A stretch of 64,000 nt of DNA, taken from positions 186,001 through 250,000 of the forward strand of contig NZ_KE386944.1 in NCBI RefSeq assembly GCF_000429725.1. Direction: 5' to 3'. Positions 18,907 to 45,673 of this stretch are shown here, piece by piece. The notes under the pieces were generated by a model. That model did not search any database and was not told the DNA's origin. It worked only from the letters and a program-made list of their open reading frames with translations. Each line of letters begins with the position of its first letter. Position 1 is the first letter of the stretch. A program made the position numbers and the translations under genes. This DNA comes from Alkalicoccus chagannorensis DSM 18086 (GTDB taxonomy: Bacteria; Bacillota; Bacilli; Bacillales; Salisediminibacteriaceae).

Positions 18907-19240
18907 TACAACGCTGTCCGGGACGAAGGACGCAGGCGCGCGTGTCGTCTGCTCGATATCAGCCTGACCGTCTCCCGTTTGGAGGCGGTTTTTGGCGTGC
19001 TCGGCGTTCTCACGCAGAGCGCTGCTGCTTTGGTAAGATGAAAGATAGAAAAGAAGCGCGTTTTGTGGAAAACAGTTGCCTTTTCATGCAGGAAAAAAGT
19101 TTTATATATGCTGAAATGCAGTAGTATTTTCTGTGTTTTTAGGGAAAAGGATAACATCACAAACCAGGATGTTGGGACATTTTCATCCGTTCAATACTCT
19201 GTTGGACAGGATCAGGACCGGAAGTCGGAGGAGATGGCTT
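18907..19240. other. Intergenic region, terminator only
   Basis: A 334-bp gap before the membrane diguanylate cyclase. Beyond the terminator at 18966-18995 it holds an AT-rich patch (about 19060-19160) where a promoter could lie, but I see no convincing -35 and -10 pair. Confidence 0.4.
18966..18995 (+). terminator. Terminator after the DUF202 gene
   Basis: ACCGTCTCC and GGAGGCGGT pair with one wobble around CGTTT and are followed by TTTTT. Confidence 0.7.
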
Positions 19241-20275
19241 ATGGAGAACTATCGTGCCCCGTTTATACAGCTGTTTACGGAGAAGGACACCGTGCATATG
19301 ATGAGCCTGGCGGCCACGGCCCATGCCGCCGTAGTCACTGCTTTTCTTTTCTTTGACTTCGCTGTGCTCGCCGCCATCAATTTGCTAAGTGCGCTCGTCC
19401 TGCTGGGAGTGCGAATGACTGGACTGGTGTACAGGCCGGCTGCTTCCTTTCTTATTCTTTACGGATCGACGCTCGTTCACGTGGGGATTGGCTCTGTGAT
19501 CCTCGGTTGGGAAATTGGCCTGTATTTTTTTCTCATCCTTTTTCCGATTGTCGGTTTTCTGCTGCTGCAGCCGCGCCAGTTAATCTGGATGCTCGCGACG
19601 AGTGCCTTCTCTTTTATCCTGCTTTACCTGTTCACGGCAGGTCAGCCATCGCCGCTTCCTGCACCGGTCCATGGCTTCTTCTACCTCTTCAATGCAGGCA
19701 TGGTGGTGTCGGCCATCGTTCGTGTGATTATGCTGTCTACCAGAGTGAACCAAGATAGGATGGGGACGATCCAAAACCAGGCGGACATCGATTCCCTGAC
19801 CGGTCTGCTGAACCGAAGAGCACTGCTCGATCAGGTGGCTCTGCTCACGGAGGAAGCGCACGTGATGCTGGTGGATCTGGACAATTTCAAACGGATCAAC
19901 GACCGTTTCGGGCACAGTACGGGGGATATGGTGCTGAAGGATTTCGGTCGTCTGCTTCAACAGCTTCCGGATGATATCCAGGCTGCCCGCTGGGGCGGAG
20001 AAGAATTCCTTCTGATTCTTCCCGGACAAACCAGGGCGGAAACGACAGCGTGGTTCGACTCTCTGCTCGAAGGGTTCCAGGAAATGGAGGCCTCCTACCA
20101 GAACTGTCCGGGTATCCAGTTCAGCTTCACCGCAGGGGCGGCCGATGTCGGAGCTTCCTTCGATCGAGCTGTTTCCCGTGCAGATGAACTGCTGTATCAA
20201 GCAAAAACGGCAGGGAAAGGCCGGCTGCTCCGGGACGGAGAAGCAGCGGAGCCATCGGCACAGTACCGGTCATAA
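19241..20275 (+). CDS. Membrane diguanylate cyclase (GGDEF)
   Basis: 344 residues. About six hydrophobic helices occupy residues 20-180. A GGDEF domain follows (DSLTGLLNRRALL, VDLDNFKRINDRFGH, WGGEEF), making c-di-GMP from two GTP. Unlike the cyclase at 886, the residues five positions before GGEEF are not RxxD (LPDDI is found), so the inhibitory I-site is missing. The frame is open further upstream, but I start at MENYRAPF because GGAGGAGA lies 7 bp before it. It is monocistronic. The input signal is unknown. Confidence 0.88.
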   Translation: MENYRAPFIQLFTEKDTVHMMSLAATAHAAVVTAFLFFDFAVLAAINLLSALVLLGVRMTGLVYRPAASFLILYGSTLVHVGIGSVILGWEIGLYFFLILFPIVGFLLLQPRQLIWMLATSAFSFILLYLFTAGQPSPLPAPVHGFFYLFNAGMVVSAIVRVIMLSTRVNQDRMGTIQNQADIDSLTGLLNRRALLDQVALLTEEAHVMLVDLDNFKRINDRFGHSTGDMVLKDFGRLLQQLPDDIQAARWGGEEFLLILPGQTRAETTAWFDSLLEGFQEMEASYQNCPGIQFSFTAGAADVGASFDRAVSRADELLYQAKTAGKGRLLRDGEAAEPSAQYRS

Positions 20276-22604: not shown

Positions 22605-22957
22605 TGCTGTTCCCGGGCGTAAGACTTGAGTGCGCGGATGATATCCTGCTCGTAGGCTTCGCTGACAAAGTCGATGCCGTACTGGAACTGCTCCCCTTTG
22701 ACGGCTTTCCAGACGATTCTGCCTACAGGCTCGATCACCATGCCGGCCAGTTCAAAGGAAAAGGTGAGGTGGTAATCAGAGTCAGGCAGGTTCAGTCCGG
22801 TCCGCATCCGCATGCCGCCCGGGCTGAGGTCTTCTAATACCCCTTTTCCTTTTTTGGACTCGCGGGATTCGCCCTGCACCCGGCTGATATAGAACGTCGT
22901 ATCAATCGGAAGGCCGAACGTGTAGCGGAGAGGTTCCTTACGTCGTCGTGAGCTCAT
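22601..22957 (-). CDS. PilZ domain protein, candidate c-di-GMP receptor
   Basis: 118 residues, a stand-alone PilZ domain. The second c-di-GMP motif is intact (DLSPGG, Asp43, Ser45, Gly48). The first motif, normally RxxxR, reads RRRKEPLR near residues 4-11: an Arg cluster is present, but strict spacing gives Lys7-x3-Arg11, so binding is likely but not certain. It lies 26 bp downstream of the M20 gene and overlaps the racemase. AAAGGAGA precedes the ATG. Its partner is unknown. Confidence 0.85.
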   Translation of the reverse strand: MSSRRRKEPLRYTFGLPIDTTFYISRVQGESRESKKGKGVLEDLSPGGMRMRTGLNLPDSDYHLTFSFELAGMVIEPVGRIVWKAVKGEQFQYGIDFVSEAYEQDIIRALKSYAREQQ

Positions 22958-43148: not shown

Positions 43149-44903
43149 TCAGGAAGCCCGTTCTTCTGATGTTGCTTCGTCGGGTTCCTCGAGTGCATGC
43201 GGCAGTTCTCCGTCTGATGGTGTTTCTTCGGTTACGCGGAACTGCTGCACGGCCTGCTGCATGTCTTCAGCCATCCGACTGAGCGTTTCAGCAGAAGACG
43301 TGATCTCTTCCATGGAAGCGTGCTGTTCTTCGGCGGAAGCGGCCACGTTCTGTGTTTGATCGGACGCCGTTCTGGCAGCTTCTGCTGCCTCGCCGGCGCT
43401 CGTCTGAAGATCTGATGTACCTGCGGTGATCTGCTGGGCGGCCGCCGAAATATCGGTCATACGCGAGCTGACATCCTGGACCGACGCTTGAATGGCCTGG
43501 AACGCTTCGCCGGCAGCCTGCGCCCGGCGCTGTCCTTCTTCGGCAGACGTCCGGCCGTTTTTCATCGCAGCAGCGGAAGCATTCACGCCCTGCTGCATGT
43601 CCTCGAGCAGGCGCTGAATGTCGCCGGCAGAGCGTCCGGACTGTTCCGCCAGCTTGCGCACTTCATCGGCGACGACAGCGAAGCCTTTGCCGTGTTCCCC
43701 GGCTCGTGCCGCTTCGATGGCGGCATTCAGGGCCAGCAGGTTCGTCTGCTCGGCGACGTTTGTGATCAGGTCAATGATGGAGCCGATTTCCTGCGACTGC
43801 TGCTGCAGGGTGACCATGGATTCCGATGCCGCAGCAGTACTGCTGCTGATGTCATGCATCTGGGCGATTGTATCCTCCATGACGCGGGAGCCCTCCTCGG
43901 ATCGGGAGGCAGCTTCTGCTGAAGCGTTGTTGGTCTCTTCAATCCCCGCTGAAATCTGTTCCATTCCTTTCGACATATCGTCGGTTGTCCGGGTGAAATC
44001 GGACGAGCGCTGCTGCTGCTGGTCCGCACCGCTGGAAAGTTCTTCGATCGAGCCGGTGATCGTCTCCGTCGCCCGGCTGGACTCTTCGGCACTTGCCGTC
44101 AGTTCTTCCGCGGAGGCGGCGACCTGCTGGGCGTGGTCGGTAATGGAGAGAAGCAGCGTGCGCAGCTGGTCTGTCATGTCATTCATATAGCTTTCCAACG
44201 TGCCGAATTCATCCTTCGTCTCCGCCGGCAGCGGCTCCGCGGGAATATCCCCTTCGCTGATCCGGCTCGCCCTTGTCATGATCCGCTGCAGGCTTCTCGT
44301 GATCGTTCTTGTCAGCAGCCAGATGATGACGGCGGCCGCTGCTGCCGCCAGAGCCATGACGACGATATACGTGGTCTGTGCGGCGGTGAGGGCGCTCTGT
44401 GCGTCTTCGCCAGCTTCGTACACATCCGCCATCGTTAAATCACGGAGGTTTTCGGAAGCAGTGCTGGAAGCCGAACGGTAAGATTCCAGCGCTGCGAGCT
44501 GAGACGGATCCTCATCTCCTTCGGCCACCGAGAGCACGTCATCGATGTTGTTATTGGAAGCGCTCAGCGTGGAGAACCAGCGCTCATGATCATTGGACGT
44601 AAGCTGTCCATCCAGCGCTGCTGCATGTTCTTCAAACATTTCGTTGTACTGCTGGAGGCGGTTGTCGTCGAAGTAACCGTCGGAGACAGCGCGCTCCGCC
44701 TGTATGTATTTCGCTCGAACGAGGGAGCCCATGTCCGTTGCACGGACAGCCTGCTCCGCCCGGTCTTCCAGCTCGCTGACTTCGTCGTTCACCATCTGCA
44801 GCGCGATGAAACTGCCGATCAATCCTCCGAGGAAGACGAGCAGAATGGCACCGAAGGCACCAAACAATTTCACTCGGAGTGAACTATTTTTCCATTTATT
44901 CAT
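43149..44903 (-). CDS. Methyl-accepting chemotaxis protein
   Basis: 584 residues. Membrane helices at about 11-32 and 178-197 flank a 145-residue extracellular helical sensor. A HAMP domain follows, then a long cytoplasmic hairpin with the conserved tip [38 protein letters not shown]. It links ligand sensing to CheA. There is no C-terminal CheR-tethering pentapeptide. GAGGAGG lies 8 bp before the start and can be hidden in a hairpin downstream of a c-di-GMP-I riboswitch (44948-45025), so expression should respond to c-di-GMP. Confidence 0.95.
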
Positions 44904-44911
44904 AAAAAACG

Positions 44912-44939
44912 CCTCCTCTGATCCTAGCCGGTCAGGGAG
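44912..44939 (-). promoter_or_regulatory. RBS-sequestering hairpin of the chemoreceptor gene
   Basis: On the minus strand CTCCCTGA can pair with TCAGAGGAG, one bulged base, 10-nt loop. The right arm contains the ribosome site, so this is a likely translational expression platform for the adjoining aptamer. Confidence 0.5.
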
Positions 44940-44947
44940 AAGATGTC

Positions 44948-45025
44948 CCTGCAGCTGGCTGGCATGGCCTCTCGGCTTCAGCCCCTTTAGCTTTGCGTCA
45001 CTGCATTTCTGCAGCTTTGCCTATG
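44948..45025 (-). ncRNA. c-di-GMP-I (GEMM-I) riboswitch
   Basis: Minus strand, 5' to 3': GGCAAAGCTGCAGAAAT, the class I core GTGACGCAAAGC (44990-45001), a GGGGCTGAAGCC hairpin, then GGCCATGCCAGCCAGC (44954-44969), which corresponds to the family's ATGGCAGCCAGGT tetraloop-receptor segment. P1 closes between GCTGC and its partner GCAGC near the ends. The class I aptamer binds c-di-GMP and often sits before chemotaxis and motility genes. It ends about 45 nt before the chemoreceptor start codon. Confidence 0.85.
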
Positions 45026-45164
45026 TGTGAGCTTAATATACATCTTTATGCCCATGAAAGCAATCAATATTTTAGATTTGTTGAGAAGTGAAACAGGTAT
45101 TTATCCCTGCACAGCGGATATCGCTGCCGTCTTCCCCACGTGAGGAGGAGTCTGTGCCTCCGAC

Positions 45165-45216
45165 GACGAAAAAAAAGCACCGGAAGGGAGATGACTTCCG
45201 GCGTCTTTTTTTCAGG
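45165..45216. terminator. Bidirectional terminator between cheY and the chemoreceptor
   Basis: GCACCGGAAG and CTTCCGGCGT pair around GGAGATGA. Runs of eight A before and seven T after give U tails in both directions. Confidence 0.8.
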
Positions 45217-45310
45217 ATGACAGCGCCAGCGTGGGTGGTCCTTTTGCGGAAAGGACATCAAGAACACAGCGGCAGTGGTGCTGCTCCTGCGTCACGACGC
45301 GTCGGTCGTG

Positions 45311-45673
45311 CTATTTACTCATGGCCTTCTCGAGCGATTCCTTGATCCGGGCTTCGTCGAAAGGCTTTACAATGAAATCCACGGCGCCTTTCTGAATAGC
45401 ATCAACGACCATGTTCTGCTGTCCCATGGCAGAGCACATGACAACTTTGGCGGAAGGATCCTGTTCGCGGATTTTCTCCAGCGCTTCAATCCCATTCATT
45501 TCCGGCATGGTGATATCCATCGTGACCAGATCTGGTTGATGTTCTTTATACATCTCGACAGCTTCCTGTCCATTCTCCGCTTCTGCTACGACTTCATAGC
45601 CCGCGTCGGTAACCATTTTTTTCAGCGTCATCCGCATGAATGCAGCATCGTCGGTAATCAATAGTTTCGCCAT
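45311..45673 (-). CDS. cheY: Chemotaxis response regulator CheY
   Basis: 120 residues, closely like B. subtilis CheY: LLITDDAAFMRMTLKKMV, the phospho-Asp in LVTMDITMPEMNG, MCSAMGQQ and DFIVKPF. It carries the signal from CheA to the flagellar switch. The frame extends 8 residues upstream, but MAKLLITDD is the family start; GAGGAGG is 12 bp from it, a rather long gap. It stands alone, with its own terminator, rather than inside a che operon. Confidence 0.94.
   Translation of the reverse strand: MAKLLITDDAAFMRMTLKKMVTDAGYEVVAEAENGQEAVEMYKEHQPDLVTMDITMPEMNGIEALEKIREQDPSAKVVMCSAMGQQNMVVDAIQKGAVDFIVKPFDEARIKESLEKAMSK

Follow-up and report, generated by a model that had tools for sequence, protein, structure and literature searches.

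Can the concentration of cyclic di-guanosine monophosphate (c-di-GMP) decide whether a cell makes a particular chemoreceptor, and if so in which direction and at which step of expression? The question is raised by a 64,000-nucleotide stretch of Alkalicoccus chagannorensis DSM 18086 (contig NZ_KE386944.1, positions 186,001 to 250,000), which we call the window, where a gene for a methyl-accepting chemotaxis protein (MCP) is preceded on the minus strand by a c-di-GMP-I (GEMM-I) riboswitch aptamer. The aptamer ends only 43 bases before the start codon, and within this short expression platform two alternative hairpins can be drawn. We infer the direction of the switch, its level of control and its promoter from the sequence. 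Our reading, to which we give a probability of roughly 60%, is that the leader of this messenger RNA holds a cis-acting riboswitch that most likely turns the gene OFF when c-di-GMP is bound, and we predict that it does so at translation, at transcription termination or at both.

The identity of the aptamer is established. In a cmscan search of the whole window against Rfam, the only match above threshold is RF01051 at 45031-44947 on the minus strand, which covers the full model (1-87) with 70.3 bits against a gathering threshold of 35 and an E-value of 9.5e-12, ruling out a chance match. A preliminary description of this DNA had named the element from its class I motifs and had proposed exactly this covariance search. 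All of those motifs lie on the minus strand in the order given there, and the gene behind them does encode a chemoreceptor, the 584-residue protein matching Pfam MCPsignal (3.7e-45, 154.3 bits, cut-off 34.6) and HAMP (3e-11, 43.9 bits, cut-off 25). Two details of that description need adjustment. Its span, 44903-45025, takes in the leader and most of the aptamer, but the aptamer match starts 6 bases further upstream; and the sequence it read as one stem, GGGGCTGAAGCC, is present but forms no single stem, since in the Rfam alignment GGGGC and GCC are two parts of P3 that flank the tetraloop-receptor position.

The interhelical Watson-Crick pair of the family, which in the numbering of the Vc2 aptamer we take to be C44-G83, is present here as C 44997 and G 44959 (by our own mapping through the Rfam alignment, as for the residues below). 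In Vc1 this pair, C36-G90, is described as universally conserved, and the residues of Vc2 that contact the ligand are G20, A47 and C92 (PMC4744006). All three contact residues are kept, as G 45021, A 44994 and C 44951, and P2 carries a GNRA tetraloop (GAAA, 45009-45006). Judged by these conserved positions, the aptamer probably binds c-di-GMP.

How binding would be translated into regulation depends on the two hairpins. The first, which we call ON (anti-sequester or anti-terminator), pairs CCAGCUGCAGGGA at 44958-44946, made of the 3' strand of the aptamer and its tail and including the C92 equivalent, with UCCCUGACCGGCUAGG at 44938-44923, and leaves the ribosome site outside. The second, OFF, pairs CUCCCUGACC at 44939-44930 with GGAUCAGAGGAG at 44924-44913, and its 3' arm contains most of the AGGAGG at 44917-44912; the predicted pairings are mutually exclusive. 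The OFF hairpin had already been drawn as CTCCCTGA/TCAGAGGAG in the preliminary description, and it exists, at 44939-44913, with a folding energy of -12.2 kcal/mol alone and -13.7 kcal/mol when a single flanking base is added at both ends. That it could hide the ribosome site and so act on translation, as was suggested, is plausible; missed were the competing hairpin with the aptamer 3' strand and the resemblance of the OFF hairpin, followed by U6, to a terminator. With flanks (44941-44910) it reaches -13.9 kcal/mol (z -2.03; 7 of 200 shuffles equally good), while a fold lacking two of the stem bases falls to z -0.60 (50 of 200), so that its stability is modestly above chance.

The order in which these structures can form suggests the direction of the switch. 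Minimum-energy folds of growing transcripts, computed at every third 3' end, contain the ON hairpin at ends 44921, 44918 and 44915, when part of the OFF arm has yet to be transcribed. When no ligand is present, the growing transcript would thus first form the ON hairpin, keeping the Shine-Dalgarno sequence out of structure so that the receptor could be made. When c-di-GMP is bound, the aptamer would retain its own 3' strand, with the C92 equivalent in the pocket; the freed CUCCCUGACC would then pair with GGAUCAGAGGAG and mask the ribosome site, and the hairpin with its U6 may additionally stop transcription. High c-di-GMP would in this way mean less of this single receptor. The ligand should favour OFF because its binding needs the very strand that the ON hairpin consumes. 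Ensemble calculations are consistent with this: in free RNA ending at 44912 and 44910, ON has a probability of 0.53 and 0.39 and OFF of 0.47 and 0.60, and when the aptamer is locked OFF rises to 0.98 at both ends with ON at most 0.01.

We also compared the pair of hairpins with chance by shuffling the 36-base platform while holding the aptamer strand, counting shuffles that reached -15.19 kcal/mol for ON and -13.49 kcal/mol for OFF (observed, -16.3 and -13.9). Both hairpins together arise in 20 of 5000 dinucleotide and 7 of 5000 mononucleotide shuffles. Taken singly they are more frequent: ON appears in 67 and 159 of 5000, respectively, and OFF in 601 and 293.

Several results weigh against a working OFF switch. 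At equilibrium the difference made by the aptamer is small in longer RNAs: once the transcript extends to 44903 or past it, the ribosome site is mostly paired either way, on average 0.74-0.83 free and 0.77-0.92 locked, and the free probability of ON ranges from 0.13 to 0.99 with the 3' end. In transcripts ending at 44903 and 44897 the OFF stem is even less likely with the aptamer locked, dropping from 0.52-0.53 to 0.35-0.37 as other pairings gain. The free minimum-energy fold at 44897 (-40.6 kcal/mol) is OFF-like, with ON enforced at -40.3 and the aptamer enforced at -39.5, states within about 1 kcal/mol of each other. The whole leader is unremarkable against shuffles (70 of 300 equally good), and an MCP search of the genome contigs gave no relative and hence no second copy of the leader for covariation. 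Within the aptamer, the tetraloop receptor in P3 reads CUGAA where the Rfam consensus is CUAAg, one changed base, and an A replaces the consensus C right after the C92 equivalent. The outer P1 helix is not apparent, its longest ungapped run being 2 pairs, a value seen in 12 of 120 tested aptamers. A generic promoter scan of 44700-45400 gave no promoter. Finally, the published Bc1 riboswitch, which stands before MCP genes, bound c-di-GMP, yet expression showed no response to c-di-GMP levels (PMC11218506). The near-equal equilibrium pairing of the ribosome site and its dependence on the 3' end imply that the switch is mainly kinetic, or weak, and the prediction of OFF leans on co-transcriptional folding. 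As for P1, it is absent from the Rfam consensus structure and was not seen in the published Cd1 riboswitch, and is therefore not family-defining; moreover, if transcription starts near 45028, which is our guess, almost at the edge of the aptamer, little room is left for it.

How does this locus compare with systems already described? The link between aptamer and MCP has been published for Bc1 of Bacillus thuringiensis, which in the B. cereus group often precedes MCP genes (PMC11218506; also placed upstream of an MCP in PMC4933901). The pairing is thus known in kind, and the window is a further example with an unusually short switch. Among literature titles we found no chemoreceptor riboswitch outside the B. 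cereus group, to which we give little weight as subscription journals were thinly covered. Bc1, upstream of mcpE, shares with the window the possible control of both transcription and translation, on which it has opposite effects; it differs in its long platform, with two terminators 28 bp apart and genes unresponsive in the cell, where the window has 43 bases and one hairpin holding the ribosome site (PMC11218506). With Cd1 of Clostridioides difficile the window shares the OFF direction (predicted here), a P1 that was not detected and an anti-hairpin formed at the expense of ligand binding, a cost described for the Cd1 antiterminator; Cd1, however, controls flagellar genes at transcription, whereas here there is one chemoreceptor and a ribosome site within the hairpin (PMC9262584). 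Vc2 of Vibrio cholerae, termed a translational OFF switch (PMC9262584), has that logic in common with our reading, together with the three contact residues and the interhelical pair. Its P1 helix, on which it depends, has no apparent counterpart in the window's aptamer.

The most serious alternative is that the switch is OFF but purely transcriptional, the hairpin at 44939-44913 with its CG-U6 being an intrinsic terminator and the masking of the ribosome site incidental. Other leaders of this kind lend the idea some support. We surveyed 120 of 281 aptamers (the window's included), namely all 23 from the genus and 97 of the 258 others, taken from the higher-scoring matches listed, and identified MCP genes in the 3500 bases behind each aptamer from tblastn matches to the window's chemoreceptor and its signalling part (two stretches, L186 and L091, are shortened by contig ends, L091 ending about 300 bases past its aptamer). 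An MCP is the apparent first gene behind 9 of the 120, the window's among them, meaning that its frame opens 43-237 bases past the aptamer with smaller intervening genes possible; in 5 more it lies further downstream, and a doubtful tenth case (L103) was left out of the nine. In the converse search, Rfam was run on 20 (L051-L070) of 29 loci with MCP homologues (L050-L078, one being the window's own), and 2 of the 20 carry the aptamer: L067, and L070, which is the same place as the already counted L130. This gives nine other MCP-linked leaders, eight from the survey plus L067, and in all nine a T-run accompanies a hairpin: a script detected eight of them, and the ninth, L067, missed by the script, was recognised by eye. 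The window hairpin, at -12 to -14 kcal/mol and with U6 starting three bases past its last pair, would fit among them. But in the eight scripted leaders the hairpin ends and the T-run starts 34-65 bases past the aptamer, and the ribosome sites recognised near the start codon in the MCP-linked leaders lie downstream of that run; the window platform is by this comparison shorter and differently built, with its ribosome site inside the stem and just 43 bases from aptamer to ATG. Its stem also has two single-base bulges, and two simple terminator scans listed no site there. We regard a purely transcriptional switch as unlikely. At two loci with chemoreceptor relatives (L052, 3310-3375, and L070, 1335-1415), the Rfam matches further include a Bacillaceae-1 RNA and a ZMP/ZTP riboswitch.

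Could ligand binding instead promote translation? An ON switch is suggested by published relatives, since Bc1, before an MCP, had earlier switched a reporter on in B. subtilis (PMC11218506) and Bc2 is an ON switch (PMC4933901), and by the window's own folds, where at ends 44903 and 44897 the aptamer lock reduces the OFF stem itself. Leaders before SinI-like genes in the same genus resemble ON switches as well. What makes this direction distinctly improbable for the chemoreceptor is that the structure freeing its ribosome site uses up the ligand-pocket strand, and that the aptamer lock slightly raises total ribosome-site pairing at all five transcript ends tested. In 11 of the 23 genus aptamers (L083-L086, L090-L095 and L100, all from genus-mates and none from the window's genome) the aptamer stands 27-39 bases before an open reading frame of 47-50 codons; of five such frames tested all match Pfam SinI, four above cut-off. 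In about 8 of the 11, by our reading of the folds, the partner of the aptamer 3' strand is the side with the ribosome site, which suggests that the ligand turns an anti-repressor ON. A putative c-di-GMP riboswitch before sinI has been noted in Bacillus methanolicus (PMC4342826).

The genus offers a closer comparison for the predicted OFF switch. Its 23 aptamers are spread over 8 genomes, and the window's is the only one followed by an MCP, the other 22 having none within 3500 bases (some stretches being shorter). Like the window's, these leaders mostly have a short distance from aptamer to start, and in many the ribosome site lies in structure. In five of them (L080, L087, L089, L096, L097), by our reading of the folds, the hairpin right after the aptamer takes in a G-rich ribosome site; their sequences have diverged, and the genes behind are related (proteins 48-63% identical). 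Equally good folds among 300 shuffles of these leaders number 0 for L080, 1 for L087, 5 for L097, 43 for L089 and 50 for L096. L089 (G000 contig 17, 37028-37113; 76.5 bits) is the other of the two c-di-GMP-I aptamers that the Rfam model finds in the window's genome, and precedes a 291-residue protein without a Pfam match, whose relatives stand behind aptamers in G002, G003, G004 and G006. A gene for a GH114 glycoside hydrolase lies behind a weaker genus aptamer (L099, G002 contig 1, 97632-97722; 50.4 bits); here too a T-run follows the AGGAGG ribosome site, just 5' of the ATG.

At the chemoreceptor locus itself the genomes differ. The upstream cheY gene is at least 87% identical in 4 of the 8 genomes, including the window's. 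In the genus-mate G002 (L140) it comes before an MCP with 50% identity to that of the window across 558 residues, and an Rfam search at permissive thresholds gave no c-di-GMP match in that leader; in G004 (L164) and G006 (L165) a relative of the window's GH32 gene adjoins cheY, with no MCP between. The locus (45673-43149 in the window) thus takes three forms across species: cheY-aptamer-MCP, cheY-MCP lacking the aptamer, and cheY adjoining GH32. The difference from G002 may be a gain in the window's lineage or a loss in G002, and the identities to the nearest aptamers (best 0.72) indicate no single donor. Such a relative lends something to the view that the riboswitch still binds its ligand but is unresponsive or decaying, the gene being no longer controlled, as do the missing P1, the small and length-dependent equilibrium change and the non-responding precedent of Bc1 (PMC11218506). 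A score as high as that of the window's aptamer, kept contact residues and the rarity of joint ON and OFF hairpins among shuffles all speak for a functional element, and we think decay improbable.

Sensors of 3',3'-cGAMP usually have A at the position of Vc2 G20. That the ligand is such another dinucleotide is very hard to credit, for although the cGAMP sensor pilM is among the homologous aptamers, the equivalent here is G, at a position described as a selectivity factor (PMC9262584), and GGDEF and EAL domains abound in the genome.

If the OFF prediction is true, c-di-GMP affects the choice of which chemoreceptor is made, beyond its effect on flagella. The presence and absence of the aptamer at a syntenic locus in sister species would provide a clean natural comparison of receptor control, and the short platform a compact test case for riboswitches that may act on transcription and translation together. 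With its OFF direction and short shared hairpin both predicted, one may go further and imagine that this single hairpin is ribosome-site lock and terminator at once, a coherent two-level OFF control in 43 bases that one lineage of the genus acquired downstream of a promoter already in place (or that its relative lost); we hold this fuller picture to be doubtful.

Table 1. Positions of the riboswitch, its alternative hairpins and neighbouring features in the window.
Feature	Position	Strand	Basis
c-di-GMP-I (GEMM-I) riboswitch aptamer	44947..45031	-	RF01051; refound in whole-genome search
G equivalent to Vc2 G20 (ligand contact)	45021	-	Rfam alignment; 27-base distance to A47
A equivalent to Vc2 A47 (ligand contact)	44994	-	Rfam alignment
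C equivalent to Vc2 C92 (ligand contact), also paired in predicted ON hairpin	44951	-	Rfam alignment, folds; own mapping
Predicted ON hairpin CCAGCUGCAGGGA / UCCCUGACCGGCUAGG, 13 pairs	44923..44958	-	-15.2 kcal/mol
Predicted OFF hairpin CUCCCUGACC / GGAUCAGAGGAG, then CG + U6 + AUG	44913..44939	-	Folding
Shine-Dalgarno AGGAGG, 8 bases 5' of ATG	44912..44917	-	Sequence
U6 tract immediately 5' of start codon	44904..44909	-	Sequence
Chemoreceptor gene (MCP, 584 aa), ATG at 44903	43149..44903	-	Pfam MCPsignal, HAMP
Predicted promoter TTGCTT-N17-TATATT	45035..45063	-	Pattern match
Terminator-like site between cheY and riboswitch promoter	45178..45203	-	9-pair stem + T-run
Stand-alone CheY-like gene, 120 aa, upstream	45311..45673	-	Pfam Response_reg 2.1e-34, on 45314-45664

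The features around the switch are collected in Table 1. A TTGnTT-N17-TATATT arrangement like that of the putative promoter also stands before the orthologous gene in G002; a MAFFT alignment of the two leaders aligned the -10 region and misplaced the start codon, and the promoter claim rests on the pattern match. The preliminary description had further tied the chemoreceptor to the diguanylate cyclases and the PilZ protein of the same window. The listed genes are present, but they lie more than 20 kb away and the tie is not specific: with 22 GGDEF and 12 EAL matches genome-wide, we reject a particular connection of the riboswitch to the window's cyclases. The GGDEF proteins of the window are encoded on the plus strand at 886-2502 and 19133-20275, with the domain matches at 1591-2061 and 19781-20221, and one of them has two receiver-domain stretches; the PilZ match (22628-22864, minus strand) scores slightly above its cut-off.
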